The notes beneath the pieces are model-generated. The model worked only from the letters and a program-made list of their open reading frames with translations. It was not told where the DNA came from and did not search any database. DNA of 32,562 nucleotides. Source: Candidatus Wildermuthbacteria bacterium. Lineage in GTDB: Bacteria; Patescibacteriota; Minisyncoccia; Minisyncoccales; UBA10102. The stretch spans positions 70,524 through 103,085 of the forward strand of contig JACQMR010000009.1 of the NCBI GenBank assembly GCA_016203455.1, read 5' to 3'. Below are positions 1-12,191 of this stretch, in pieces. The translations under genes and the position numbers were made by a program. Numbering within the stretch: the first letter of the stretch is position 1; every line of letters begins with the position of its first letter.

Positions 1-1191
1 AAACTGGACATATCAAACGACGATTTTATTCGCACCACAGACGCAATCCGCCACTGGCCCGCGGTGCAAACGGTATGGAAACAACTAAAAGAACATAGCG
101 ACTTGGAGAAACGCTCCTACGAAGGATTATATTGCGCGGGGTGCGAGGCGTTCATGGCGGAAAAGGATTTGGCAGAAGGGCTGTGTCCCATACACAAGAA
201 GGCGCCGGAACCCGTGAAGGAGGAAAACTGGTTCTTTTTGCTTTCAAAATACGGGCCTGCGTTGAAAGAAAAACTAGAGTCAGGAGAATTGCGCATTGTA
301 CCTGAAAGCAGGAAAAACGAGATACTTGAATTGATAAAGCAAGGGTTGCAAGATGTGAGTTTTTCCAGGCCCAAAGAGAAACTGCAATGGGGTATTCCGG
401 TTCCAGACGATGATACGCAGGTTGTGTATGTATGGGCGGACGCGCTTACGAATTACATCTCCGCTTTGGGGTATCCCTCGGGAGAAAAATTCAAGGAATA
501 CTGGCCTGCCAGCGTGCATGCGGTTGGGAAGGATATTTTAAGGTTCCACGCGACAATATGGCCCGCAATGCTTTTGTCGCTGGGCTTGCCGTTGCCCAAG
601 ATCATCTTTGTTCACGGATTTATCACCGTGGAGGGGCAGAAAATGTCAAAGTCCTTGGGAAATGTGATAGACCCTTTTTCTCTGATTGAGAAATATGGAG
701 CGGATGCCGTTCGGTATTTTTTCTTGCGGGAAGTTCCCGCCGCGGAAGACGGGGATTTTTCTTTTGAACGGTTTGAACAGAGATATAATGCTGATTTGGC
801 TTCGGGGCTGGGGAATTTGGTTGCGAGGGTTTTGAAAATGGGGGATATGGCGTTTGGAGAAACGCTACCGGTCCCGGCCGGATTTTCAGATAAGCAGTTT
901 CAATCTGTCGCGGACGAAGCCAGAAAAGGCATAGACGGCGCCCTGGACAATTTTCAATTTGGCTCCGCGCTTGAGAAGATATGGGAGGTCATGCGGTTTT
1001 GCGACAAATATATAGATGAAAAAAAGCCCTGGGAGCAGAAAGACGGAAGCCGGGAGGTTATCGGCGATTTGTTGTTCGCGATTCATGAGCTGGCGGATTT
1101 TCTGGAGCCGTTTTTGCCGGGCGCCGCGCGCAAGATAACAATACAGCTCGCGGGACGGGATCGCGCCGCGTTGTTTCCCCGCGCTGTTTAG
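1..1191 (+). CDS. metG: Methionyl-tRNA synthetase, 5'-truncated by window edge
   Basis: Frame open from base 1 (KLDISNDDFIRTTDAIRHW...); class I aaRS motif KMSKSLGNVIDP; zinc-binding CAGC region; MetRS-like C-terminal helices. Confidence 0.95.
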   Translation, partial: KLDISNDDFIRTTDAIRHWPAVQTVWKQLKEHSDLEKRSYEGLYCAGCEAFMAEKDLAEGLCPIHKKAPEPVKEENWFFLLSKYGPALKEKLESGELRIVPESRKNEILELIKQGLQDVSFSRPKEKLQWGIPVPDDDTQVVYVWADALTNYISALGYPSGEKFKEYWPASVHAVGKDILRFHATIWPAMLLSLGLPLPKIIFVHGFITVEGQKMSKSLGNVIDPFSLIEKYGADAVRYFFLREVPAAEDGDFSFERFEQRYNADLASGLGNLVARVLKMGDMAFGETLPVPAGFSDKQFQSVADEARKGIDGALDNFQFGSALEKIWEVMRFCDKYIDEKKPWEQKDGSREVIGDLLFAIHELADFLEPFLPGAARKITIQLAGRDRAALFPRAV

Positions 1192-1231
1192 TGAGCATAG
1201 ACGGGCATGATATAAAGAAACGCCGGTTTTT

Positions 1232-2542
1232 ATGGCAATACCAAAAACGGTACAATCGGGGAATCAGGAGGGAGAGCTGTTTCGGCTGGGACAGTTGCGC
1301 TACTCTTTGTTTGTCGTGATTCTCACCGGGCTTTCCGCGCCGCTGTTATATTTCTTTTTGGAGTTTCCCTGGGCAACGAACCGCACGGGAGCGGTTTTGT
1401 CTTTGTTTGTTTTGTTTTGTTACATTATTTTTGCCAGATACGCCGTGAAGGGCAGGTGGGTGCGCGCGGTGGTCGTGGCCGATCACTTTGTTACGGTGGC
1501 GTGCGTTGCTTCTCTGGCGTATTTTACGGGGGGCGCGCTTAGCCCGTTTAATTTCTTTTTGATTATTCCCATCGCCTTCGGGTCTTTTCTTGCCGGCAGA
1601 AAGTTCGGCATTGCCATGATGGGGATCTCTTTGGGCGTGTTGGCTTCTTTTCTGTTCCTGCCTGGCACGGCGGGCGCTGAATTTTCAATACGGCTTGCCT
1701 TTGTTCTTTCATACGGCGTTTTGATTTTGTATTTGTCCTATGTCCTGCTTTTTTTGAGAGAAATGCTTGTGCGTCTGGACCGGGCGCGGAAAATTGCCCA
1801 AGAACGAGTGTCGTATTTAGAGCATGTAACGGCCCGGCTAAAAGAATTGGACGAAGTGAAAAGCGAGTTTATCACAAGAACTTCTCATCAGCTTTTAAGC
1901 CCTTTGAACAGAATTTCCTGGGTGCTGGGCAGTGTTCTTGAGGGGCAGTTTGGCCAGGCGCAGATAGAGCAGAAAGCTCGCGTGGAAGTGGCGCAAAAGA
2001 GCGCGAAGGACTTGATCAAACTGGCAACGGATCTTTTGGATTTGGGCAAAATTGAAGAAGGGGTGCGCGGAGCAAAAAGAGAGCGGGTTGTTCTGGCGGA
2101 TGTTGTTTCTCGCGCCTTGAAAGACCAGGAAGAAGCTATTCGGGCGAAGCGGCTGGAAGTATCGGTTAAAGACGGCAAACAAACGGCCGTGGTGTCAGAT
2201 GTTTCTCTTTTGAGTTCCGCGATCGGGCATGTTATTGACAACGCGGTACGGTATAACAAAAAGGGCGGAAAAGTTGCCGTTGATATTTTAGAAAAAGAAG
2301 AAATGGCGGTTATGAAGGTTTCAGACACGGGCATAGGGATTTCCGAACAAGACATGCCCAATGTGTTTAAACGATTTTACAGAGGAGAAAACGCGTCTCG
2401 TTTTGTGGCGGACGGCACGGGCTTGGGACTTTCTTTCGCCAAAGCCGTAATAGAAAAAGAGGGGGGGTCCATTGCGTTGCAAAGCACAGAAAACGAAGGC
2501 ACTGTGGTTACCATAACCTTACCCATCCAGCCCAATCCTTAA
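1232..2542 (+). CDS. Membrane sensor histidine kinase
   Basis: N-terminal TM segments; H-box SEFITRTSHQLLSPLNRI; N-box HVIDNAVRYN; G-boxes DTGIGIS and GTGLGLSFAKAVIE; no adjacent response regulator. Confidence 0.92.
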   Translation: MAIPKTVQSGNQEGELFRLGQLRYSLFVVILTGLSAPLLYFFLEFPWATNRTGAVLSLFVLFCYIIFARYAVKGRWVRAVVVADHFVTVACVASLAYFTGGALSPFNFFLIIPIAFGSFLAGRKFGIAMMGISLGVLASFLFLPGTAGAEFSIRLAFVLSYGVLILYLSYVLLFLREMLVRLDRARKIAQERVSYLEHVTARLKELDEVKSEFITRTSHQLLSPLNRISWVLGSVLEGQFGQAQIEQKARVEVAQKSAKDLIKLATDLLDLGKIEEGVRGAKRERVVLADVVSRALKDQEEAIRAKRLEVSVKDGKQTAVVSDVSLLSSAIGHVIDNAVRYNKKGGKVAVDILEKEEMAVMKVSDTGIGISEQDMPNVFKRFYRGENASRFVADGTGLGLSFAKAVIEKEGGSIALQSTENEGTVVTITLPIQPNP

Positions 2543-2557
2543 CGGGGTTAAGGATTG
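2534..2557 (+). terminator. Palindrome CAATCCTTAACggggTTAAGGATTG at 3' end of the kinase gene
   Basis: Perfect inverted repeat overlapping the stop codon; weak T-tract; also a dispersed repeat (see findings). Confidence 0.45.
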
Positions 2558-2559
2558 AT

Positions 2560-2589
2560 TTGACAAAACCTTTTTGGGTTTGCTATAAA
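2560..2589 (+). promoter_or_regulatory. Sigma70-like promoter TTGACA-N18-TATAAA
   Basis: Consensus boxes just upstream of small ORF 2616. Confidence 0.65.
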
Positions 2590-2615
2590 AAATATATCAA
2601 AAACAAGAACGCGGC

Positions 2616-2693
2616 ATGACACAGCAAAAAACGCAAAAGAATATCGCAGTCGCCATTATTGCCTCCTTTACCGGACTGGGCGGGTTTATGTAG
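2616..2693 (+). CDS. 25-aa leader peptide MTQQKTQKNIAVAIIASFTGLGGFM
   Basis: Small ORF between consensus promoter and intrinsic terminator, with antiterminator pairing. Confidence 0.55.
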   Translation: MTQQKTQKNIAVAIIASFTGLGGFM

Positions 2694-2714
2694 AAATACT
2701 CTTTGAGAAATTGC

Positions 2715-2748
2715 AAAGAACCTCCCAGCCAACGGGAGGTTCTTTCTT
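2715..2748 (+). terminator. Intrinsic terminator (attenuator)
   Basis: AAAGAACCTCCC-agccaac-GGGAGGTTCTTT followed by CTT. Confidence 0.8.
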
Positions 2749-2868
2749 GTAGCACATAGTTTGCATATTCGTGACTTGCGGATTGCGGATTGGAAAAGTA
2801 CGGTTTTTAATCCGGAGCCCGAAAGTAGGCACTTTCACAATTTACAACAAAGGAGCGGGAGGGTTTTT

Positions 2869-3066
2869 ATGGATTCTTTTCTCTATGAGATGACCGAGGG
2901 GCAAGAAAGAAGATGGCGTCGTGCCTGTGCGCTTGGCGATCAAGCGGTCGCCTTGCGCAAAATTGTGGCGGAACAAATTAAGGCCCGAGGGGCGGCGGTT
3001 GATTGTTCCGGCCATTTATCGGCGCAGGCGTATCATCTGCGCCGAATACGGGACAAGTTCTATTAA
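2869..3066 (+). CDS. Small uncharacterised protein (65 aa)
   Basis: MDSFLYEMTEGQERRWRR... preceded by AGGAGCGGGAGG; followed immediately by a terminator. Confidence 0.55.
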   Translation: MDSFLYEMTEGQERRWRRACALGDQAVALRKIVAEQIKARGAAVDCSGHLSAQAYHLRRIRDKFY

Positions 3067-3067
3067 G

Positions 3068-3096
3068 AAGGGTTCATTTGGGACCCTTTTTCTTTT
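3068..3096 (+). terminator. Intrinsic terminator
   Basis: AAGGGTTC-atttg-GGACCCTT then TTTCTTTTT. Confidence 0.75.
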
Positions 3097-3108
3097 TCCG
3101 CCATGCCA

Positions 3109-3136
3109 TTGACATTGCCTCTTGCGCCTGTATAAT
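3109..3136 (+). promoter_or_regulatory. Perfect consensus promoter TTGACA-N16-TATAAT
   Basis: Both boxes match consensus; predicted TSS close to ATG 3144. Confidence 0.75.
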
Positions 3137-3143
3137 TCCAATT

Positions 3144-3230
3144 ATGATGCGAAATCAAACAAAGTGGTTTATCTCTTATCATATGAGACCCAAGAGACGG
3201 GGCCTGTTGTTTGATGCGCGGAAGTTTTAG
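3144..3230 (+). CDS. 28-aa putative leaderless leader peptide MMRNQTKWFISYHMRPKRRGLLFDARKF
   Basis: ATG about 8 nt after the -10 box; followed by alternative hairpins and terminator. Confidence 0.5.
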   Translation: MMRNQTKWFISYHMRPKRRGLLFDARKF

Positions 3231-3260
3231 GTATAGCTTGGAAGATTTCTTTACGCAATC

Positions 3261-3299
3261 AGCGGCGGCCCTTTCCCAAGAGGGGTCGCTTTGTTTTTT
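3261..3299 (+). terminator. Intrinsic terminator (attenuator)
   Basis: AGCG(gcg)GCCCTT...AGGGGTCGCT followed by TTGTTTTTT. Confidence 0.6.
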
Positions 3300-3414
3300 G
3301 CAAGGAAAACGGATTGGGGTTCCCGGGTAATTAATGGCCCGGGATCTCCAGGCCGCGTATGGTTCGCGAAAAACAACAAACAGAGTTTGCCTGGAGCTCT
3401 GCCGGAGAAAAAGC

Positions 3415-3591
3415 ATGTGCTACGATTTGTATGAGCCCGGGCTGAATAGGGATCAACAACTCGCCGCATGTCCCAAGGGCATGTGGGACGGGCGGTGGAA
3501 TCCCGCGCCGCGCGCGCGGGGGGAGGAGGGCAAGGTTGGGGAGCCCCTGACCGTGCCGGTCCCAACCAAAGAGGACTACTGCGCGTTGTAG
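3415..3591 (+). CDS. Possible small protein (58 aa)
   Basis: MCYDLYEPGLNRDQQLAACPKGMWDGRW...; GGAG upstream; lies downstream of the 3144 attenuator. Confidence 0.35.
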   Translation: MCYDLYEPGLNRDQQLAACPKGMWDGRWNPAPRARGEEGKVGEPLTVPVPTKEDYCAL

Positions 3592-3680
3592 TCAACAATG
3601 GGGCAGAGGGCGGCATTGTGTCTCTCTCTGTCCCGCCCCTTTTATTGGTTAGAGGATATAATTCATGTAATTATGATGAT

Positions 3681-4772
3681 ATGAATAAAGAACTTTTCGC
3701 AAAACTTGTTTCTTTCAAGACCACGGCGGATAATCCCGAGGAAATCAAAAAAGGATTTGAATATATCGCGGGCCTTTTTGACGAGAATGTTTTTGAGGCA
3801 AAGATACTGGAGAAAAATGGCAAGTATTCCCTCTTGGTTTCTTTTGCTGGCAAAGACGGCTTGCGGCCCCATATTCTTTTGAACGGGCATTTTGATGTGG
3901 TGCCGGCTGAAGATGAGAGCCAGTTTGTTTTGCGCGTTGAGGGCGATAAGGCGTTTGGCAGAGGAACCATGGACATGAAAGGCATGGCGTGCGTTCTCAT
4001 TGAAATGATGCTGGAGCTGGGGAAATTTCCAGATAAAAAAGATGTTGCTTTATTGCTGAACGGGGACGAGGAGGTGGGCGGAGAAAACGGGGCCGGGTAT
4101 ATTGCGCGGGAGCTTGGCATGCGCCCCGAGTTTATGCTGTGCGCCGATGGCTCTGGCGAAAAAAGTTTTTCTATTGTTACCAAAGGCAAGGGCGTTTTGT
4201 GGTTGGAGTTGCAAGCGCGAGGCAAGACGGCGCACGGCGCGTATCCGTGGTTGGGCGAGAATGCTTTAGATATGGTTGTTTCTGCGATACGGAAGATTCA
4301 AGAGTATGTTGGTGAAATCAAAGCGGATGCGTGGAAAACCACGGTAAATGTGGGGGTTATAGAAACCGGCAATAAAACGCCCAATAAAGTGCCGGCAGAC
4401 GCCAGAGCGGTGCTGGATATTCGTTTTACGGGAGAATTTGCAAAAACTCCGGATGAACTTTTGCAAGCCATACAAAAACTGGTGCCCGGCGTTGAGACGC
4501 GAGCTTTGGAAAAAGGATCTCCCCTGCTTGTTCGGGAAGATAACTCCATTCTCGCGAAATTTCGGGAATCGGCCGAAGCCGTGCTGGGCAAAAAAGTTCC
4601 GTATTCATTTGAGCACGGAGCGGTGGACGCCAGGTATTTCGCGGGAGCGGGCGTGCCGGTTGCCGTGTTCGGGGCCGTGGGAGCCAATATGCACGCCCAA
4701 GGGGAATGGGTGGATATAAAGACACTAGAGCAAAACAAAGAAATCTTGCGGAAGTTTCTTGCGGGCGTATAA
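3681..4772 (+). CDS. M20-family peptidase/deacylase (ArgE/DapE-like)
   Basis: LLNGHFDVVP, FGRGTMDMKG, NGDEEVGG metal-binding motifs; TATAAT at 3657 supports start at 3681. Confidence 0.9.
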   Translation: MNKELFAKLVSFKTTADNPEEIKKGFEYIAGLFDENVFEAKILEKNGKYSLLVSFAGKDGLRPHILLNGHFDVVPAEDESQFVLRVEGDKAFGRGTMDMKGMACVLIEMMLELGKFPDKKDVALLLNGDEEVGGENGAGYIARELGMRPEFMLCADGSGEKSFSIVTKGKGVLWLELQARGKTAHGAYPWLGENALDMVVSAIRKIQEYVGEIKADAWKTTVNVGVIETGNKTPNKVPADARAVLDIRFTGEFAKTPDELLQAIQKLVPGVETRALEKGSPLLVREDNSILAKFRESAEAVLGKKVPYSFEHGAVDARYFAGAGVPVAVFGAVGANMHAQGEWVDIKTLEQNKEILRKFLAGV

Positions 4773-4783
4773 CCAAAGAGCTG

Positions 4784-5059
4784 TTATATTCTTTTCTCCA
4801 GATTTTTATATATCACAGAACGATGCTGAATCGCCAGAATTTTAACAAGCGCGTTTTCAATGCGAAAGATAACCCGATAATCCCCAACCCGCAGTTTTCG
4901 GTATCCTTTTAGAGAGGCATGGAGAGGTTTTCCGAATACTTCAGGATGTGTTGTTAGTTTTTCCTCAATAGCCTGTTTAACCGCGCCTCTCCATTCTTGG
5001 GAGAGTGGGGGAATGTCTTTTGTTATTACATCTGTATGGTATTGTATCGCAAAACCCAT
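4784..5059 (-). CDS. RelE/ParE-type toxin
   Basis: PLHASLKGYRKLRVGDYRVIFRIENALVKILAIQHRSVIY is RelE-fold signature. Confidence 0.85.
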   Translation of the reverse strand: MGFAIQYHTDVITKDIPPLSQEWRGAVKQAIEEKLTTHPEVFGKPLHASLKGYRKLRVGDYRVIFRIENALVKILAIQHRSVIYKNLEKRI

Positions 5060-5075
5060 GCCTCATTGATTCTAG

Positions 5076-5306
5076 TTAAGGCCTTTTAGTCCAGGCCTTT
5101 GCATGGGAGATAAATTTTGCCTTTTGGGAATCTCGTTTGCTTGCGATCTGATTCCAAACCATGTCCTCTTCTAGCTCCAGAGCAAACCGCAAAAGATTTA
5201 CGGCTTTTGTTGCTTGAGGCATATTGTCTCTTTTCGCCACCAGTGCCAGCGCGTATTCCATGGCGTCGGTAAGAGTTATGTTAATTCTTTTTTTTGCAGT
5301 AGCCAT
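5076..5306 (-). CDS. Putative cognate antitoxin
   Basis: 76 aa small protein immediately upstream of the RelE toxin gene in the same operon. Confidence 0.7.
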   Translation of the reverse strand: MATAKKRINITLTDAMEYALALVAKRDNMPQATKAVNLLRFALELEEDMVWNQIASKRDSQKAKFISHAKAWTKRP

Positions 5307-5309
5307 ATG

Positions 5310-5351
5310 TAGTGTATCTTTAGTGTATCACCAATGCGAAGGTGCTGTCAA
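5310..5351 (-). promoter_or_regulatory. TA promoter with two direct repeats
   Basis: Minus strand TTGACA-N18-TACACT; plus-strand TAGTGTATC at 5310 and 5321 (11 bp period). Confidence 0.6.
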
Positions 5352-5375
5352 TCTTTGCAGCGCGTAGGGCAGACA

Positions 5376-5407
5376 AACAGAGGAGGGGGCAGTTCCTCCT
5401 CTGTTTT
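5376..5407 (+). terminator. Intrinsic terminator-like hairpin
   Basis: ACAGAGGAGG...CCTCCTCTGT followed by TTTTT. Confidence 0.55.
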
Positions 5408-5418
5408 TTGGATGCCTA

Positions 5419-5456
5419 TTGACATTGTTGTTTGGTGTTGATAGTGTACTAGTACA
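5419..5456 (+). promoter_or_regulatory. Promoter plus TrpR-type operator palindrome GTACTAGTAC
   Basis: TTGACA at 5419; palindrome 5446-5455 containing CTAG abuts the ATG at 5457. Confidence 0.55.
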
Positions 5457-5789
5457 ATGGCAAAAGGAGAAAAAGATGGTTGGCGCGGGGAAGAACAAAA
5501 AGAATCGCAGAAAGACAAAAGAGCCGAGGAGCTCGTTGGGGTAATCCAAAAGATTGCCATCAATAAGGAGCTCTTGAGGGAGTTTTTGATAGATCTTCTT
5601 TCTCCGGCGGAGTATCGCGAGTTGGGAGTGAGGTGGCAGATTGTACAGCAATTGAACCGAGGGGTTTCCCAGAGAGATGTGTCTGAAAATCTGCGCGTAG
5701 GCATAGCAACCGTAACCCGCGGTTCTCGTGAACTGGCAAATCCCAAAGGGGGGTTTAGAAGAGTTTTGAAGATATTGGAGAAAAAATAA
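5457..5789 (+). CDS. Trp repressor family protein (TrpR/YerC)
   Basis: LLSPAEYRELGVRWQIVQQLNRGVSQRDVSENLRVGIATVTRGSREL matches the TrpR helix-turn-helix pattern. Confidence 0.88.
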   Translation: MAKGEKDGWRGEEQKESQKDKRAEELVGVIQKIAINKELLREFLIDLLSPAEYRELGVRWQIVQQLNRGVSQRDVSENLRVGIATVTRGSRELANPKGGFRRVLKILEKK

Positions 5790-5851
5790 AGAGTTTTTGT
5801 GCCTTGACGCATGGATCGTTCTATGCGCCAGCGCATAAATCAGCGCGCGGA

Positions 5852-5881
5852 AAGGAGGTAGTCATCATGCAGGGCTGGTAA
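5852..5881 (+). CDS. Mini-ORF MQGW with strong SD
   Basis: AAGGAGGT, 7 nt spacer, ATG CAG GGC TGG TAA. Confidence 0.35.
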   Translation, partial: KEVVIMQGW

Positions 5882-5910
5882 ATAATGGGGGATTATCCTC
5901 CAAAATAAAA

Positions 5911-5949
5911 AAGCGGTGGCGGCGTTTGCTGTCCACCGCTTCACTATTT
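5911..5949 (+). terminator. Intrinsic terminator
   Basis: AAGCGGTGG-cggcgtttgctgt-CCACCGCTT then cactaTTTTTT. Confidence 0.7.
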
Positions 5950-6005
5950 TTTGCGTTCTGAAAAATCTTTGCTATAGTGTTGCCAACCTGTTTTGGGGGC
6001 GACTT

Positions 6006-6248
6006 ATGCAGTACCCATGTCCACATTGTGGCAAGGCAATGCGGTATATGCAGGGTTCTTTTGGATTATATTTCCATTGTTCTTGCGGGCAAGAGGTGTA
6101 TGGGGAGGGAACGCCTCAAGAAGGGTCAAAGCGCGGGCCGCGCTTTGATTGCGATAAGCCAAAGAACAGCTCTAACCCGCCCCCTGATTTTAGCAGGGTT
6201 CGTGTCGCAAGGGGGACGGCGCGAACAAGCAGAAAAAGTCATTTGTAG
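6006..6248 (+). CDS. Small zinc-ribbon protein (80 aa)
   Basis: MQYPCPHCGKAMRYMQGSFGLYFHCSCGQEVYG: CPHC...CSC; promoter TTGCGT-N16-TATAGT at 5951-5978; terminator follows. Confidence 0.7.
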   Translation: MQYPCPHCGKAMRYMQGSFGLYFHCSCGQEVYGEGTPQEGSKRGPRFDCDKPKNSSNPPPDFSRVRVARGTARTSRKSHL

Positions 6249-6280
6249 GGGCGGCAATATATAACCGCCCCGTTTTTATT
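6248..6280 (+). terminator. Intrinsic terminator
   Basis: GGGGCGG-caatatataa-CCGCCCC-GTTTTTATT. Confidence 0.85.
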
Positions 6281-6308
6281 TGACAAAAAATTTGAGGTTT
6301 GCTAGGAT
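6280..6308 (+). promoter_or_regulatory. Promoter TTGACA-N17-TAGGAT
   Basis: Spacing and boxes fit sigma70; TSS only a few nt before ATG 6320. Confidence 0.7.
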
Positions 6309-6319
6309 TATTTTACAAC

Positions 6320-6394
6320 ATGAAACAGTCCAATCGCTTTTGCTTTTATTTCTTTTTTACCGGCCCCGCGAAGAGCCAGGACTTTTTGATGTAA
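6320..6394 (+). CDS. Phe-rich attenuator leader peptide MKQSNRFCFYFFFTGPAKSQDFLM
   Basis: F-C-F-Y-F-F-F run; analogous to E. coli PheL; downstream gene is prephenate-dehydratase-like; alternative hairpins present. Confidence 0.85.
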   Translation: MKQSNRFCFYFFFTGPAKSQDFLM

Positions 6395-6416
6395 CAGCAA
6401 CATCTTGAATCTAGTC

Positions 6417-6454
6417 CCCGGCCTCTTTGTATAAAGAGGCCGGGTTTGTTTTTG
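6417..6454 (+). terminator. Attenuator terminator
   Basis: CCCGGCCTCTTT-gtat-AAAGAGGCCGGG then TTTGTTTTTG. Confidence 0.92.
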
Positions 6455-6579
6455 TGGAGAGAATGGTTTTTTGGCGGCAGTCCTTTGATTTTAATCGGGG
6501 TTGCCTCCAGGAAATCACGAGTAATCCTGGCGCTTTCAAAAGCGAGAGTTCTTTTATAACTGGAACAAGAGGAGTATCT

Positions 6580-7470
6580 ATGGTTATTAAAGTCGGGTTC
6601 CTGGGACCAATGGGCAGTTATAGCGAGAAAGTGGCGCGCGATATGGCGAGGCATCCTGAATCTTCGCAATGGGTTGAAATTGGGACAATCCCGGAGGTTA
6701 TTGAAAATGTTGCCACGGGTCTGGTTGGCGAGGGCATTGTTCCGTTGCGTACGGCATACGGAGATGTGCCGGAAACATTGGACGCTTTGCATCGGGCCGT
6801 TGTTGGCATGGGGAGCCAGGGCGGGAGCATCTTCATCACTGGATACTCCGACAGAACCATTAAATTTTGGCTCGGAGGACTCCCGGGGGCAACTTTGGCT
6901 GACATAGCAGAGGTTGTAACAAAGCAAGAAGCGGTCCAGGCATGCGCTTCCGAAATCAGTCGCTTGGTGCCTGGCTATGCTCCGGTTTATCAGGCAAGTA
7001 CCGCGCTTGGAGCGCGTATGGTTGCCACCAGTGGGCATAGAACACGGGCCACGCTTTGCTCATTGGAAGCACTCCATGAAAACGGCTTGGTTCCATTGCT
7101 GTCCTCGCCGATTATTCGGGTGACAAGTTTCATCCGTGTCGGGCCGCGCCGTTACGCAGGGGCGCAATACGACGAAAGCGCCGTAATGGTCCGAGTTCTG
7201 CAGGATCGTCCAGGGATCCTCAAGTCCATAGGTGAGGCCGTGGATCCCCTGAATCTTGTGGACTTCTCTGTGCTAAAAAATCGCCTTGATGTTGGCGACA
7301 AGATGGCACAGGTTGTGTTTCTCCTGCGGATTAAGGCGGGAGTTAGGGAGGCCGAACTCGTCGTGGAGTTTTTGCGGGCAATGTTCCGGGTGAAGGAGGA
7401 GCTTTTTGGAGTTCCCGAGGATTTGCGGTCGTTGGTCACGAACCTCGGCAGTTATCCGGTATTGCTCTAG
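6580..7470 (+). CDS. Divergent prephenate dehydratase-like protein with ACT domain
   Basis: VGFLGPMGSYSEKVAR start; VTSFIRVG; ACT-like VMVRVLQDRPGILKSIGEAVDPLNLVDFSVLKNR; SD AAGAGGAG upstream. Confidence 0.82.
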   Translation: MVIKVGFLGPMGSYSEKVARDMARHPESSQWVEIGTIPEVIENVATGLVGEGIVPLRTAYGDVPETLDALHRAVVGMGSQGGSIFITGYSDRTIKFWLGGLPGATLADIAEVVTKQEAVQACASEISRLVPGYAPVYQASTALGARMVATSGHRTRATLCSLEALHENGLVPLLSSPIIRVTSFIRVGPRRYAGAQYDESAVMVRVLQDRPGILKSIGEAVDPLNLVDFSVLKNRLDVGDKMAQVVFLLRIKAGVREAELVVEFLRAMFRVKEELFGVPEDLRSLVTNLGSYPVLL

Positions 7471-7483
7471 TATTCGTTTCATT

Positions 7484-7512
7484 AAGAGCGTTCAAAAAAC
7501 GCTCTTTTTCTT
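7484..7512 (+). terminator. Intrinsic terminator
   Basis: AAGAGCGTT-caaaa-AACGCTCTT-TTTCTT. Confidence 0.88.
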
Positions 7513-7687
7513 ATGATAGATTGGTACTTTGCATTAAGGAATTAAGGATAATTAGGAATAATCTCCAAGATAGCGCAAAGAATTACACGAGTTTTCTTTT
7601 TGTAAAACGCTAGCGGAGTTGACACGAAGGAGCGCGGTTGGTACATAAAGAGTATCTTTTTTTTGCGCCGTACGCGCGGGGGAAAGC

Positions 7688-7918
7688 ATGGCTCTTTTTG
7701 GCTTCACTCGTCATGAGCAAGATCGTCAGGATTTTCGCGTCCGGGCGCCGGGGGCGCAGGCGGGTTTTGAGCGGATTCAGGCCGCTCTTCCCCAGGAGGT
7801 CGTTGCGTATCTCCGAAGTTCCCTTGAGACGCGGGGCTTGTCACTGGCCGAGATTACCGCGGCCGATGTCGTCAAACTATGGGAAGTCCAGCGGAGGCGT
7901 GCTCAATCTCATGGTTAA
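7688..7918 (+). CDS. Small uncharacterised protein (76 aa)
   Basis: MALFGFTRHEQDRQDFRV...; upstream TTGACA-N17-TACATA; terminator directly downstream. Confidence 0.6.
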   Translation: MALFGFTRHEQDRQDFRVRAPGAQAGFERIQAALPQEVVAYLRSSLETRGLSLAEITAADVVKLWEVQRRRAQSHG

Positions 7919-7947
7919 AGCGGTCTTTCTTGGACCGCCTTTTTTCT
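7918..7947 (+). terminator. Intrinsic terminator
   Basis: AAGCGGTC...GACCGCC followed by TTTTTTCTT. Confidence 0.7.
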
Positions 7948-7975
7948 TGACATTCTTTTTCGTTTTTGCTATACA
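7947..7975 (+). promoter_or_regulatory. Promoter TTGACA-N17-TATACA
   Basis: Near-consensus; predicted TSS about 7982, five nt before ATG 7987. Confidence 0.75.
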
Positions 7976-7986
7976 TATCGCATAGT

Positions 7987-8061
7987 ATGATTTCTTCACA
8001 GCGAAACAATCTGTTGTTGGGATTGTTGCTCCTCTTGAATACGGGGAGTGTTTCGCGTTGA
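7987..8061 (+). CDS. Leu-rich attenuator leader peptide MISSQRNNLLLGLLLLLNTGSVSR
   Basis: 8 Leu in 24 codons (CTG TTG TTG GGA TTG TTG CTC CTC TTG), with three mutually exclusive stems; downstream LeuA regulatory domain and tRNA-Leu. Confidence 0.9.
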   Translation: MISSQRNNLLLGLLLLLNTGSVSR

Positions 8062-8098
8062 AGAGCAGGCAGATAGGCCATATTCTTTAAACGCACGC

Positions 8099-8133
8099 AC
8101 TCCCCGATTCAATCGGGGAGTTTTTGTTTGTTT
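8099..8133 (+). terminator. Attenuator terminator
   Basis: ACTCCCCGA-ttcaa-TCGGGGAGT then TTTTGTTTGTTT. Confidence 0.92.
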
Positions 8134-8237
8134 CGACGATTGTATATTGGGGAAAGTGAAATATACAATCGTCGGCACATTAACAACAAAATGAAAAAAA
8201 AGGAGAATGCTTTGGGTGCCGAAAGCAAAATTGTACT

Positions 8238-8657
8238 GTGAATGCGAGGACGGTTTTTTCCTGGGGTCGCGCAAGCTATTCTGGCGGCGATGGAGATGAC
8301 ATCCACACAGCTACCATACAATTGATTCGGGACGGGAAGGAGTACACTGAAGCCGCAGTGGGCAATGGCCCCGTGGACGCCTTGTGCAGGGCCATTGACC
8401 GTGTTGTGGGCGAACATTGTACTGTGGGCAATTTTACTGTTCGGGCTATGGATAAAGGAGTGAATTCCATTGGCCTGGTAGTCTTGCATGTTGAAAGAGA
8501 CGGCAAGATTTATCCCGGGCGCGGCGAATCTCACGACATTATCATTGCCAGCGGAAAGGCGTATTTGAATGCCTTGATGTTGGCGCTGTCGGCCGACGGG
8601 GAACAAGAAATTATTATTCCCGTCGTGCTGGGCGTAGCACACACCCCCATGAGTTAG
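8238..8657 (+). CDS. Stand-alone 2-isopropylmalate synthase (LeuA) allosteric/dimer domain protein
   Basis: HTATIQLIRDGKEYTEAAVGNGPVDALCRAIDRVV and GESHDIIIASGKAYLNALM resemble the LeuA C-terminal regulatory domain; no HMGL-like catalytic barrel in the window; GTG start uncertain. Confidence 0.82.
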   Translation: MNARTVFSWGRASYSGGDGDDIHTATIQLIRDGKEYTEAAVGNGPVDALCRAIDRVVGEHCTVGNFTVRAMDKGVNSIGLVVLHVERDGKIYPGRGESHDIIIASGKAYLNALMLALSADGEQEIIIPVVLGVAHTPMS

Positions 8658-8662
8658 ATTGT

Positions 8663-8761
8663 AGGGCGGTAGCTCAACCAGGCAGAGCGCCGGGTTCAGA
8701 GCCCGGAGGTAGCCGCATTCTAATGGCTGTATTATCGGTTCAAATCCGATCCGCCCTACCA
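8663..8761 (+). tRNA. tRNA-Leu (anticodon CAG), class II, CCA encoded
   Basis: AGGGCGG/CCGCCCT acceptor; GCTC/GAGC D stem; CCGGG-TTCAGAG-CCCGG anticodon arm; long variable arm; ATCGG-TTCAAAT-CCGAT; A-CCA. Confidence 0.9.
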
Positions 8762-8773
8762 AGAATTAAAACC

Positions 8774-8808
8774 ATGGCCTATCTGATAGATAGGCCATTT
8801 TCTTTTGT
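8774..8808 (+). terminator. Intrinsic terminator after tRNA-Leu
   Basis: ATGGCCTATC-tgata-GATAGGCCAT then TTTCTTTTGTTT. Confidence 0.9.
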
Positions 8809-8831
8809 TTAATTTTCTCTACAATAGATTT

Positions 8832-9791
8832 ATGCTCATAGACACCCACGGTCATGTTTCTTTTTACGCGTTTAAAGACGATGCTGACGCCGTGTTACAG
8901 CGTACTCTTGAGGGAGATACTTGGGTTGTGATGCCTGGTACGCAGTTTTCCACCTCTAAAAGGGCCGTGGAGCTTGCGGAAAAGTATGATCAGGGGGTGT
9001 ACGCCGCTATCGGGCTTCATCCTATTCATCTTACGGAGAACAGGAGAGTTGACGAGCTGGAAACGCAGTCGGAGATCCTTCAGCAAGTTCAGCATGAAAA
9101 ATCATGGATGACTTTTCAGACAAAAGGGGAGGAGTTTGATTACGCGAAATACAAGGAGCTGGGGCAGAGTAAAAAGGTGGTTGCCGTAGGGGAATGCGGC
9201 CTGGATTATTACTGGGAGCCCAAAGGCAAAGAAAAACGCGAAGCCCAGCGCGTGAAGCAAAAATCAGCTCTTGCGTTGCAGGTAAAACTCGCGGGTGAAC
9301 TCGGTCTCCCCGTTATTTTGCATTGCCGCAAAGCTCACGAGGATTTGATTGAGTTTCTTGATACAAGATACAAAATACAAGATACAAGATTGCGGGGCGT
9401 TGTTCACTGTTACACCGGCGACTTAAAGCAGGCAGAACAATTTTATGGACTGGGCCTGTATTTCGGGTTCAACGGCCTGATTTTTAAGCATGTGCCCGCT
9501 TTGCCAGACCCAAAAGAAATTATAGCCGCCTTGCCTTTAGAAAGAATTGTGCTGGAAACCGACTCGCCGTATCTAACTCCTGCCATAGCAGGGACTGTCC
9601 CTGCTACTTTGGCTCGCCGTAGTCTCGAAGAAAAAAGGGACGAAGGCGGCCCTCATGATGAAAGAAATGAGCCCCTGTTTGTAAAGTATGTGGCTGAAGA
9701 AATCGCCCGCATAAAAGGTATTTCGTTGGAAGAAGTGGCAAGAGTTACAACGCAAAACGCGAAGGACCTTTTTTCTCTGGATACAAAATAG
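8832..9791 (+). CDS. tatD: TatD-family DNase
   Basis: MLIDTHGHVSF; AIGLHPIHL; VGECGLDYY; ILHCRKA; LETDSPYLTP; RNEPLFVKYVAEEIA. Confidence 0.93.
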   Translation: MLIDTHGHVSFYAFKDDADAVLQRTLEGDTWVVMPGTQFSTSKRAVELAEKYDQGVYAAIGLHPIHLTENRRVDELETQSEILQQVQHEKSWMTFQTKGEEFDYAKYKELGQSKKVVAVGECGLDYYWEPKGKEKREAQRVKQKSALALQVKLAGELGLPVILHCRKAHEDLIEFLDTRYKIQDTRLRGVVHCYTGDLKQAEQFYGLGLYFGFNGLIFKHVPALPDPKEIIAALPLERIVLETDSPYLTPAIAGTVPATLARRSLEEKRDEGGPHDERNEPLFVKYVAEEIARIKGISLEEVARVTTQNAKDLFSLDTK

Positions 9792-9794
9792 TAT

Positions 9795-12191
9795 ATGCGC
9801 GGCGCACCCATGTATATCGCTTGGCTTGGGGATGTATCCCAAAAAGATGTCGCGCTTGTCGGTGGCAAGGCCGCCGGGCTTGGAGAACTTGCGCGAGCGG
9901 GGGTTCTTGTGCCTGAAGGATTTGTTGTGACAACGAGCGCGTACGGGGCGTTTGTAAAAGAGAGCGGTATAGATAAAGAGCTGGAAAAGATATTCGCGGG
10001 AGCGGACGGGCGCGGTGAACAGGTCTTGCGAAAAAGCTCCCGGCTTGCCAGGGAGTGTATTTTGAACGCGCCGTTTCCCGCGGTTCTTGAGCAAGAGATT
10101 TTGCAAGCATACGAGAAGCTTTCTGCCAAACACAAGGGACGGGCGCGCGTGGCAGTGAGATCTTCCGGGGTTCACGAGGACTCGGCAGAGGCGTCTTTTG
10201 CTGGTCAGCACGACACATTTTTGAATGTTTCGGGAGCGCGGGCCGTTCTTTTGGCTGTGCGGGCGTGTTTTGCTTCTTTGTATTCTGAACGGGCGGTGTT
10301 TTATGCGAAAGAGCGCGGCATTGTTTTTTTGCATAGCGCGCTCGCGGTGTGCGTGCAGGCAATGGTGAGGAGCGATATAGCCGCAAGCGGGGTGGCGTTT
10401 ACCGCTGAACCCGAAACCGGATGCAAGACCGCTCTCGTTATTACCGGGTCTTATGGTCTTGGAGAAACCATTGTGCAGGGTAAAGTTGAGCCGGATGAAT
10501 TCGTGGTGTTTAGGCCCTCTTTGCTTTTGGGATATTCAGCGATTATCTCTCGTACGCTCGGCAGGAAAAGCAAAAAGTCAACGCGCGCGAGTAAAGGCGT
10601 GCGCGAACAAGAGGTTTTGCAAAAAGACGCGGAACGATTTTGTCTTTCAGACAGGGAAGTTTTACATTTGGCTTGTTCATGCGTTGCCATAGAGGAGCGG
10701 TTTTCCGGATTGGCCGGACATTCCGTTGTTCTGGATATTGAGTGGGCAAAAGACGGCATAGACGGCAAAATATATATTGTGCAGGCGCGGCAAGAAACTG
10801 TGCATTCGCAAGGCGCGTCTGTTCGGGGGTATGCGATATATAAAAGACAGGGCACGGGGAACATATTGGCGCAAGGCGTTGCCGTTGGGCGCGGAATGGC
10901 AGTTGGAAGGGCGCGGGTTGTTCGCAATAAAAAAGATATTTTGGCAATACAAAAAGGAGATATTCTGGTGGCTGAACGCACGGATCCCGATTGGGAGCCG
11001 GTGTTGAAGCGTGTTGCGGGCGTTGTTGCAGAAACCGGAGGAAGAACGAGTCATGCCGCGATTGTTGCCCGGGAGCTGGGCATTCCCACGATTGTGGGCG
11101 CGAGAGGAGCAATGCGGGTTCTTGCCGGAAAGGAGATTACCCTTGATTGCAGTGAGGGCGTTGGCATTGTGTACGAGGGCCGCGTGCCGTTTACTGTCGC
11201 AGTACAGAACGCGCCCGGCATTGTTCAAACAAAGACAAAAGTGATGGTGAATATAGGATCTCCCGCCTCGGCGTTCCAGCATTCTTTTTTGCCTGTGCAG
11301 GGAGTTGGCCTCGGCCGTCTGGAGTTTTTGATTGCTTCTCATATAAAAATTCATCCGAACGCTCTTTTGCGGTACGGCGAACTGAAAAATCTTGCAAAAA
11401 CAAACGCGAAGATTCGCCGCATTGCGAAAGACATAGACGGACTGACCGCGGGCTATTCCAATAAATCGCGGTTTTATCTGGACAAACTGTCTGAAGGCAT
11501 GGGAACGATAGCCGCGGCGTTCTGGCCGCGCGAGGTTATCATTCGTTTTTCGGATTTTAAAACAAATGAATATCGTTCTTTGATTGGCGGGGAGTTATAC
11601 GAGCCGTTTGAAGAAAATCCCATGCTTGGATGGAGAGGGGCTTCCCGCTACGGCGATCCCAGGTTTGCCGAGGCCTTTGGCCTGGAGTGCAAAGCCATGC
11701 TAAAGGCGCGGAATGAATGGCGCCTTACCAACATTATACCCATGGTTCCTTTTTGCCGCACCGTAGAGGAGGGCAAAAGAACGATTGAGATGATGAAAAA
11801 GCATGGATTGAGCAGGGAGCAAGACAAAACACTCAAGGTGTATGTGATGTGCGAGATTCCTTCCAATGTTTTGCTTGCCGATGAATTTTTGGATGTGTTT
11901 GATGGTATGTCTATCGGTTCAAACGATTTAACCCAGCTTGTGCTTGGAAGAGATAGGGATAGCGGGGAAAAAGAACCGGACGAAGAGAACAACGAGGCGG
12001 TGCGGCGCATGGTGCGTATGGCCATTCGGGCGTGCAAAAAGCGGGGCAAGTATGTTGGTATTTGCGGGCAGGCGCCTTCTGACAGCCCCGCGTTTTTGAA
12101 ATTTTTAATTCAAGAAGGCATAGACAGCGTTTCTTTAAACCCGGACAGCGTTATTTCGGCGCTATCTCGCATAGCAAGGCATGCCGGTTGA
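9795..12191 (+). CDS. ppsA: Phosphoenolpyruvate synthase / pyruvate,water dikinase homologue
   Basis: GGKAAGLGEL; VAVRSSGVHEDSAEASFAGQHDTFLN; phosphohistidine motif GGRTSHAAIVARELGIPTIVG; C-terminal MCEIPSN and SIGSNDLTQ. Confidence 0.93.
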   Translation: MRGAPMYIAWLGDVSQKDVALVGGKAAGLGELARAGVLVPEGFVVTTSAYGAFVKESGIDKELEKIFAGADGRGEQVLRKSSRLARECILNAPFPAVLEQEILQAYEKLSAKHKGRARVAVRSSGVHEDSAEASFAGQHDTFLNVSGARAVLLAVRACFASLYSERAVFYAKERGIVFLHSALAVCVQAMVRSDIAASGVAFTAEPETGCKTALVITGSYGLGETIVQGKVEPDEFVVFRPSLLLGYSAIISRTLGRKSKKSTRASKGVREQEVLQKDAERFCLSDREVLHLACSCVAIEERFSGLAGHSVVLDIEWAKDGIDGKIYIVQARQETVHSQGASVRGYAIYKRQGTGNILAQGVAVGRGMAVGRARVVRNKKDILAIQKGDILVAERTDPDWEPVLKRVAGVVAETGGRTSHAAIVARELGIPTIVGARGAMRVLAGKEITLDCSEGVGIVYEGRVPFTVAVQNAPGIVQTKTKVMVNIGSPASAFQHSFLPVQGVGLGRLEFLIASHIKIHPNALLRYGELKNLAKTNAKIRRIAKDIDGLTAGYSNKSRFYLDKLSEGMGTIAAAFWPREVIIRFSDFKTNEYRSLIGGELYEPFEENPMLGWRGASRYGDPRFAEAFGLECKAMLKARNEWRLTNIIPMVPFCRTVEEGKRTIEMMKKHGLSREQDKTLKVYVMCEIPSNVLLADEFLDVFDGMSIGSNDLTQLVLGRDRDSGEKEPDEENNEAVRRMVRMAIRACKKRGKYVGICGQAPSDSPAFLKFLIQEGIDSVSLNPDSVISALSRIARHAG

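Follow-up and report, generated by a model that had tools for sequence, protein, structure and literature searches.

A predicted leucine attenuator ahead of a standalone LeuA allosteric domain and a tRNA-Leu gene in a Candidatus Wildermuthbacteria genome

Leader, coding region and tRNA gene at the locus

We analysed a stretch of 32,562 nucleotides (hereafter the window) on contig JACQMR010000009.1 of a Candidatus Wildermuthbacteria genome, and compared it with related genomes of its order. The closest comparison is with G154, Candidatus Wildermuthbacteria RIFCSPHIGHO2_02_FULL_45_25 (MHTV01000003), a 96% complete genome from the family to which the window belongs. Between 7947 and 8798 of the window we identified the following features:

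7947..7975, plus strand: promoter TTGACA-17-TATACA (PWM score 12.4; the median of the best background score in 400 nt is 8.3)
7987..8061, plus strand: leader peptide MISSQRNNLLLGLLLLLNTGSVSR, near-leaderless, with 8 Leu in 24 codons (one CUG, five UUG, two CUC)
8029..8034, plus strand: region 1, CUCCUC (two Leu codons), which by sequence inspection can pair with GGGGAG of region 2
8042..8051, plus strand: region 2, 5' arm of the antiterminator, CGGGGAGTGT, which pairs with 8097-8106 over 10 bp (0 of 300 shuffles as good)
8099..8121, plus strand: predicted attenuator terminator, a stem-loop (-16.1 kcal/mol) followed by TTTTGTTT
8122..8237, plus strand: post-terminator 5' UTR, 90% identical to that of G154 over 115 nt (fold z = -3.6)
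8134..8174, plus strand: UTR hairpin; changes relative to G154: one double compensatory, two wobble-preserving
8200..8227, plus strand: Shine-Dalgarno (SD) motif AAGGAG (8200-8205), then hairpin TGCTTT..AAAGCA (8208-8227), identical in G154
8238..8657, plus strand: standalone LeuA allosteric (dimerisation) domain, 139 aa, GTG start (Pfam PF08502; AlphaFold2 model (beta3-alpha)x2; fold matches 3f6g and Leu-bound 3fig)
8663..8761, plus strand: tRNA-Leu(CAG) (ARAGORN; Rfam 57.7 bits)
8774..8798, plus strand: predicted terminator 3' of the tRNA, end of the putative transcript

The leader starts 12 nt after the promoter at 7947-7975 and is near-leaderless; leaderless leader peptides occur in other bacteria too. 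A stock promoter scanner overlooked this promoter because it demands a T at the last -10 position, and comparable TTGACA-type promoters lie shortly 5' of the leader ATG in G154, G157, G206, G093, G025 and G196. The partner of region 2 (8097-8106) is the 5' arm of the terminator, such that the antiterminator, which overlaps the leader ORF, and the terminator are mutually exclusive. Both antiterminator arms are conserved in G154, and the leader region as a whole folds with z = -5.2. The locus thereby combines the elements of a ribosome-mediated attenuator, namely a leader ORF rich in cognate codons, an intrinsic terminator before the gene and a mutually exclusive antiterminator. An attenuator finder that requires a promoter, a short ORF, a terminator and an antiterminator returned 14 matches in the loci of the window's own family, where G171 contributed one pair of overlapping frames; shuffled sequence (560 kb) gave none. 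Loci belonging to other families of the order yielded 15 matches over 269 kb, and those of other organisms 5 over 714 kb. Rfam, run over 7940-8260 at a permissive threshold, showed no known leader family, and we found nothing on attenuation in Patescibacteria in the papers searched. We infer with high confidence that transcription is attenuated here, presumably in response to leucine.

The arrangement resembles the enterobacterial leuL-leuABCD and actinobacterial leuA leaders (PMC1262725) in that a Leu-rich leader ORF overlaps an antiterminator, followed by a terminator and read-through to a leuA-derived gene. It differs from them in that the output in the window is the allosteric domain alone, that leuA catalysis, leuB and leuC were not found in the genome, and that the transcript apparently runs into a tRNA.

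Compared with G154, the UTR at 8122-8237 is the best-conserved stretch of the locus, above the tRNA and every coding part compared. This conservation, the covarying hairpin and the SD-hairpin-start layout are not needed for ordinary attenuation; the hairpin at 8208-8227 could bridge the SD at 8200-8205 to the GTG start.

A LeuA allosteric domain and a missing leucine pathway

The ORF at 8238-8657 matched the Pfam family LeuA_dimer (PF08502) at 83.1 bits (E 2e-23), and its best NCBIfam match was 2-isopropylmalate synthase (LeuA-type). It was the sole PF08502 match in the source genome (519 kb searched, 83% complete). A preliminary description of this DNA had reported a LeuA-like ORF without the catalytic domain in the window; our searches bear this out, as the HMGL-like catalytic domain (PF00682) was found neither in the ORF nor elsewhere in the 519 kb of the 83% complete source genome. 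The same description had proposed checking the genome for the leuA catalytic domain, leuB and leuC, and in our check PF00682, PF00180 and PF00330 were not found in the source genome (83% complete). LeuB (PF00180) and LeuC/aconitase (PF00330) were absent from all 12 genomes tested, including the source genome as well as G154 and G157, which encode a full LeuA; given the completeness of the source genome, what was not found there counts for less than the absences in G093 (97%) or G154 (96%). Of the other genomes with standalone domains, G093 (97% complete), G025 (96%) and six more had no PF00682 match at all, G196 being outside the genome set tested for PF00682, PF00330 and PF00180. Full-length LeuA/CimA enzymes without detected LeuB or LeuC were observed in G154, G157, G034 and G152.

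The GTG start of the ORF has no SD at normal spacing. The first predicted strand of the domain (residues 8-15) begins right after it, which supports it as the start codon. We rejected an upstream start at ATG 8207, whose reading frame is not that of the domain and closes after about 30 codons, and a programmed frameshift into the domain was set aside because the start codon of the G154 LeuA aligns with GTG 8238. We consider it likely that the ORF encodes a real protein.

The AlphaFold2 model of the domain comprises two beta3-alpha repeats (pLDDT 85.8, pTM 0.78), with a tail that is disordered beyond residue 121. The top PDB fold matches were 3f6g, the isolated regulatory domain of Leptospira citramalate synthase (Ile), and 3fig, the leucine-bound M. 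tuberculosis LeuA. Tandem dsRNA-binding domains were far weaker fold matches, and a single-sequence search of solved structures gave chance matches only. By alignment, V46, V63, F66 and A70 are conserved as hydrophobic at positions that we take to be those of the LeuA pocket. M. tuberculosis LeuA (3fig, 1sr9) is alike in the sequence and fold of the allosteric domain and in the hydrophobic pocket positions, whereas the window protein has neither the catalytic TIM barrel nor the linker subdomains. The Leptospira domain (3f6g, 3f6h) shows that a lone member of the family can fold and, in the crystal, bind its own amino acid, Ile, although it is an engineered enzyme fragment and the window domain is a natural standalone gene. 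Based on the fold match to Leu-bound LeuA, the window domain likely binds leucine. Given the weak similarity to dsRNA-binding folds and a structured UTR that is highly conserved, the domain might conceivably bind RNA, e.g., its own mRNA.

Recurrence, origin and possible function of the standalone domain

PF08502 was present in 21 of the 247 genomes of the order, all of which were searched, and standalone LeuA/CimA domain genes are rare, with 11 in 10 of these genomes (the window, G196, G093 with two, G025, G105, G147, G009, G174, G168 and G160). A branched-chain amino acid (BCAA) leader lies 5' of 8 of the 11. Leu leaders with a terminator and an antiterminator precede the domains of G196 (LVLVLNLIL), G093:C6 (LLIGLLGLLLLL) and G025 (LLLIFGLLVL), the weakest antiterminator being that of G196, which 8% of shuffles reach. 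In two scans, one of them relaxed and without a shuffle control of its own, Ile-rich leaders were found before G093:C16, G105, G147 and G009, and a BCAA leader before G284, from another order; no leader was found 5' of the standalone domains of G160, G168 and G174.

NCBIfam typing within the order classified the standalone domains with Leu leaders as LeuA-type and the remaining seven all as CimA-type. Among full-length genes, those of CimA-type carry Ile-rich leaders in G152, G011, G242 and G241, and LeuA genes carry Leu-rich leaders in G154, G157 and G206. Across 15 leaders, the Ile share of Ile+Leu shows no overlap between the LeuA- and CimA-types (U = 0, p = 0.0007), and the window fits this class pairing, with a Leu leader and a LeuA-type domain by NCBIfam. 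This matching of leader to domain type is our strongest indication that each standalone domain still deals with its own amino acid, and it speaks for amino-acid-sensing proteins that have been retained, not for junk. The combination of a Leu attenuator and an orphan LeuA allosteric domain, first pointed out in the preliminary description, is real as far as sequence comparison can tell; leader and sensor domain recur together in other families, and the combination is undescribed in the papers searched. The gene order at G025 is metG, Leu leader, LeuA domain, small ORF and tatD; at G196, metG, DAHP synthase, Leu leader, LeuA domain and contig end; and in the window, metG, further genes, a prephenate-dehydratase (PDT)-like gene, Leu leader, LeuA domain, tRNA and tatD. 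At G147 (L025 about 4080-4500, minus strand), a winged-helix-like short ORF precedes the CimA-type standalone domain on the same Ile-attenuated transcript and is a possible partner.

Scanning named genomes with the window protein alone gave no match; with an alignment of the window and G154 proteins, the nearest match was the G154 record. In G154, the gene order is PDT (pheA-like), Leu leader (...KNLLLGLLLLLNMGSVSR...) and full LeuA (517 aa from ATG), and the sequence through to the LeuA start codon is near-identical to that of the window. Nucleotide identity from the Leu codons to the terminator stem is 84%, and identity elsewhere is 79-82% for the tRNA, 48% for the LeuA domain (protein), 60% for TatD, 62% for MutY and 26% for PDT. 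The window ORF passes from the aligned start directly into the allosteric domain, with about 390 codons of the G154 LeuA missing. Since the same leader precedes a full LeuA in G154, we infer that the window gene is a leuA descendant whose catalytic domain was lost in frame. The tree places the window with G154 and then G196 (support 98/62 and 85/92), so the catalytic domain has probably been lost more than once.

Taken together, the explanation we favor, and consider somewhat more probable than all others combined, is that a leucine attenuator controls a transcript whose protein is a catalysis-free LeuA allosteric domain, and that its gene arose from a full-length leuA already preceded by this leader. 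Abundant charged Leu-tRNA would let the ribosome pass all eight Leu codons, so that the terminator (8099-8121) would form and transcription would end. When charged Leu-tRNA is scarce, the ribosome would stall, regions 2 and 3 would pair, and RNA polymerase would read into the LeuA domain and continue past tRNA-Leu(CAG) to 8774-8798. The product would fold as a leucine-binding domain and, we tentatively suggest, might sense or buffer leucine as a soluble protein in a cell that would import it.

An alternative that we consider unlikely, yet the most serious rival, is that the locus is a relic in decay: leuA would be eroding for want of a leucine pathway, and its allosteric end and attenuator would be functionless leftovers, like the degenerate-looking, Phe-attenuated PDT neighbour. 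Such decay would be in line with the absence of LeuB and LeuC even in relatives with a full LeuA, and with a neighbouring PDT that is only 26% identical to that of G154 and has TSF for TRF and KNRL for ESRP. The end branch of the window is also four times longer than that of G154 (0.86 vs 0.22) and the standalone rows are long-branched in general; this faster evolution fits relaxed constraint and counts against retained function. The rarity of the standalone domains, the three of them that have no leader, the GTG start lacking a normally spaced SD and the 83% completeness of the source genome likewise weigh against the favored explanation. However, standalone domains with cognate leaders recur in several families, with Leu or Ile matched to the domain type, and those of G196 and G093 have a good SD and an ATG. 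Conserved columns are preferentially retained as well: the window domain keeps 18 of 21 strongly conserved columns, compared with 40 of 96 other columns in common with G154 (p = 0.0002), which supports but does not prove selection after truncation, as some changes may predate the loss. Moreover, neutral simulation leaves the ORF open in 6-12% of runs at comparable divergence, and the 90% identity of the UTR to that of G154 also speaks against decay.

Patescibacteria are seen as bacteria without amino-acid biosynthesis and without much of the usual regulation. Should our favored explanation be right, they use ribosome-mediated attenuation to sense leucine and isoleucine and, of a biosynthetic enzyme, have kept the sensing half beyond the loss of the synthetic one, and a concrete, testable function can be offered for recurrent small orphan proteins annotated by domain alone. 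A broader generalization, which we regard as doubtful, is that the LeuA and CimA allosteric domains of Patescibacteria have become independent regulators that respond to leucine and isoleucine and are produced only during starvation, via cognate near-leaderless attenuators, with tRNA-Leu additionally under BCAA attenuation in this lineage.

The adjoining tRNA-Leu(CAG) and the wider neighbourhood

The preliminary description had placed the end of the ORF at 8657 and the start of the tRNA at 8663, with no terminator between them and a strong one from 8774, all of which our predictions confirmed: the 5-nt gap between the ORF stop and the tRNA holds no terminator-like site. The tRNA is the only CAG isoacceptor found in the 83% complete source genome, in which we found five tRNA-Leu genes, each single-copy (UAA, GAG, UAG, CAG and CAA). 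The best internal promoters for the tRNA scored 9.2 (15-nt spacer) and 6.7, near background, in what is a weak test, given that the UAA, GAG and UAG tRNA-Leu genes score no better. With no DNA intervening beyond the short gap, no terminator in it and no promoter better than background just before the tRNA, the tRNA is probably transcribed together with the ORF.

The preliminary description had gone further, proposing that with co-transcription the attenuator would read tRNA-Leu charging and adjust the supply of tRNA-Leu along with that of a putative leucine-binding protein. We rejected a leader tuned to the downstream tRNA: CUG makes up one of the eight Leu codons and none in G154. Because the codons are mostly UUG and CUC, the leader does not appear to read tRNA-Leu(CAG) charging specifically and would do so weakly at best. 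In G154, the orthologous tRNA-Leu(CAG), which ARAGORN missed (Rfam 60.1 bits), lies 3.4 kb downstream of leuA and directly behind a separate Ile/Leu/Val attenuator (L029 6800-7160, minus strand), with no ORF between; the order there is promoter TTGACA-17-TATATT, leader MKRFFQTIILLVIVLILDKREAFSVR, terminator, hairpin and tRNA. The tRNA thus stands behind a BCAA attenuator in two genera via different leaders, which may be genuine control or mere coincidence, the two having come close when genes were lost. Attenuators and T-boxes 5' of aminoacyl-tRNA synthetase and amino-acid genes likewise sense tRNA charging to control amino-acid-related genes, whereas in the window and G154 it is a tRNA gene itself that stands behind a BCAA leader, for which we found no precedent in the papers searched. 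This raises the question of whether a tRNA gene could be the regulated output of an attenuator.

It seems improbable to us that attenuator, leucine-binding protein and tRNA-Leu evolved as a single feedback unit in which leucine charging sets the supply of tRNA-Leu. The 5-nt gap without a terminator or a clear internal promoter would suit such a unit, as would the G154 ortholog, since attenuated tRNA transcription may then occur in two genera. Our synteny survey, however, found no tRNA-Leu near the LeuA domain at the other LeuA-domain loci examined; the adjacency occurs in the window genome alone, so that by the criterion of the preliminary description itself the tRNA part of the proposed system fails; leader, domain and tRNA-Leu as a single evolved system are not supported, and judging from synteny the tRNA is not a conserved or core part of the unit. 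In addition, the codon decoded by tRNA-Leu(CAG) is scarce in the leader, and making an essential tRNA dependent on starvation would be odd.

A split enzyme, with the catalytic half encoded separately in the 17% missing from this 83% complete genome and the domain acting in trans, is very improbable in view of the absence of PF00682 from G093 (97%), G025 (96%) and six further standalone-domain genomes. An assembly artefact, with the catalytic domain lost through contig collapse or chimerism in this draft genome of 15 contigs, is hardly credible when independent standalone genes with leaders exist in G196, G093 and G025 and the junction coincides with a domain boundary.

Several further observations concern the surroundings. 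A Phe attenuator lies before the PDT-like gene (window 6280-7470), with a promoter at 6280-6308, a leader (MKQSNRFCFYFFFTGPAKSQDFLM) at 6320-6394 and a terminator at about 6417-6444; judging by the changes TRF to TSF and ESRP to KNRL, the window PDT-like protein may be non-catalytic, and intact PDT genes lie behind Phe leaders in G145, G171 and G194. The metG-tatD interval (window 1-9791, L023, L029, L214, L217, L219) is a family hot spot of amino-acid attenuators, whose leaders (Leu, Phe, Ile/Leu/Val and aromatic) stand ahead of genes for LeuA, PDT and DAHP synthase as well as of several short unknown ORFs. BCAA leaders precede short unknown ORFs 5' of tatD in G171 and G194 (L214 minus strand 8071-8204; L217 minus strand 11629-11752), and in G194 a tRNA-Leu(GAG) ends just 5' of the BCAA leader promoter. 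G034 offers a further case of a tRNA beside a LeuA-family gene: its tRNA-Phe (L032 2303-2401) is 22 nt 5' of the open frame of a gene for a full LeuA-like protein. Within the window, a ParE-like toxin ORF (PF05016; 4784-5306, minus strand) with a small adjoining ORF probably forms a toxin-antitoxin pair, and a TrpR-like ORF (5457-5789; PF01371, 64 bits) lies upstream of the Phe- and Leu-attenuated genes.
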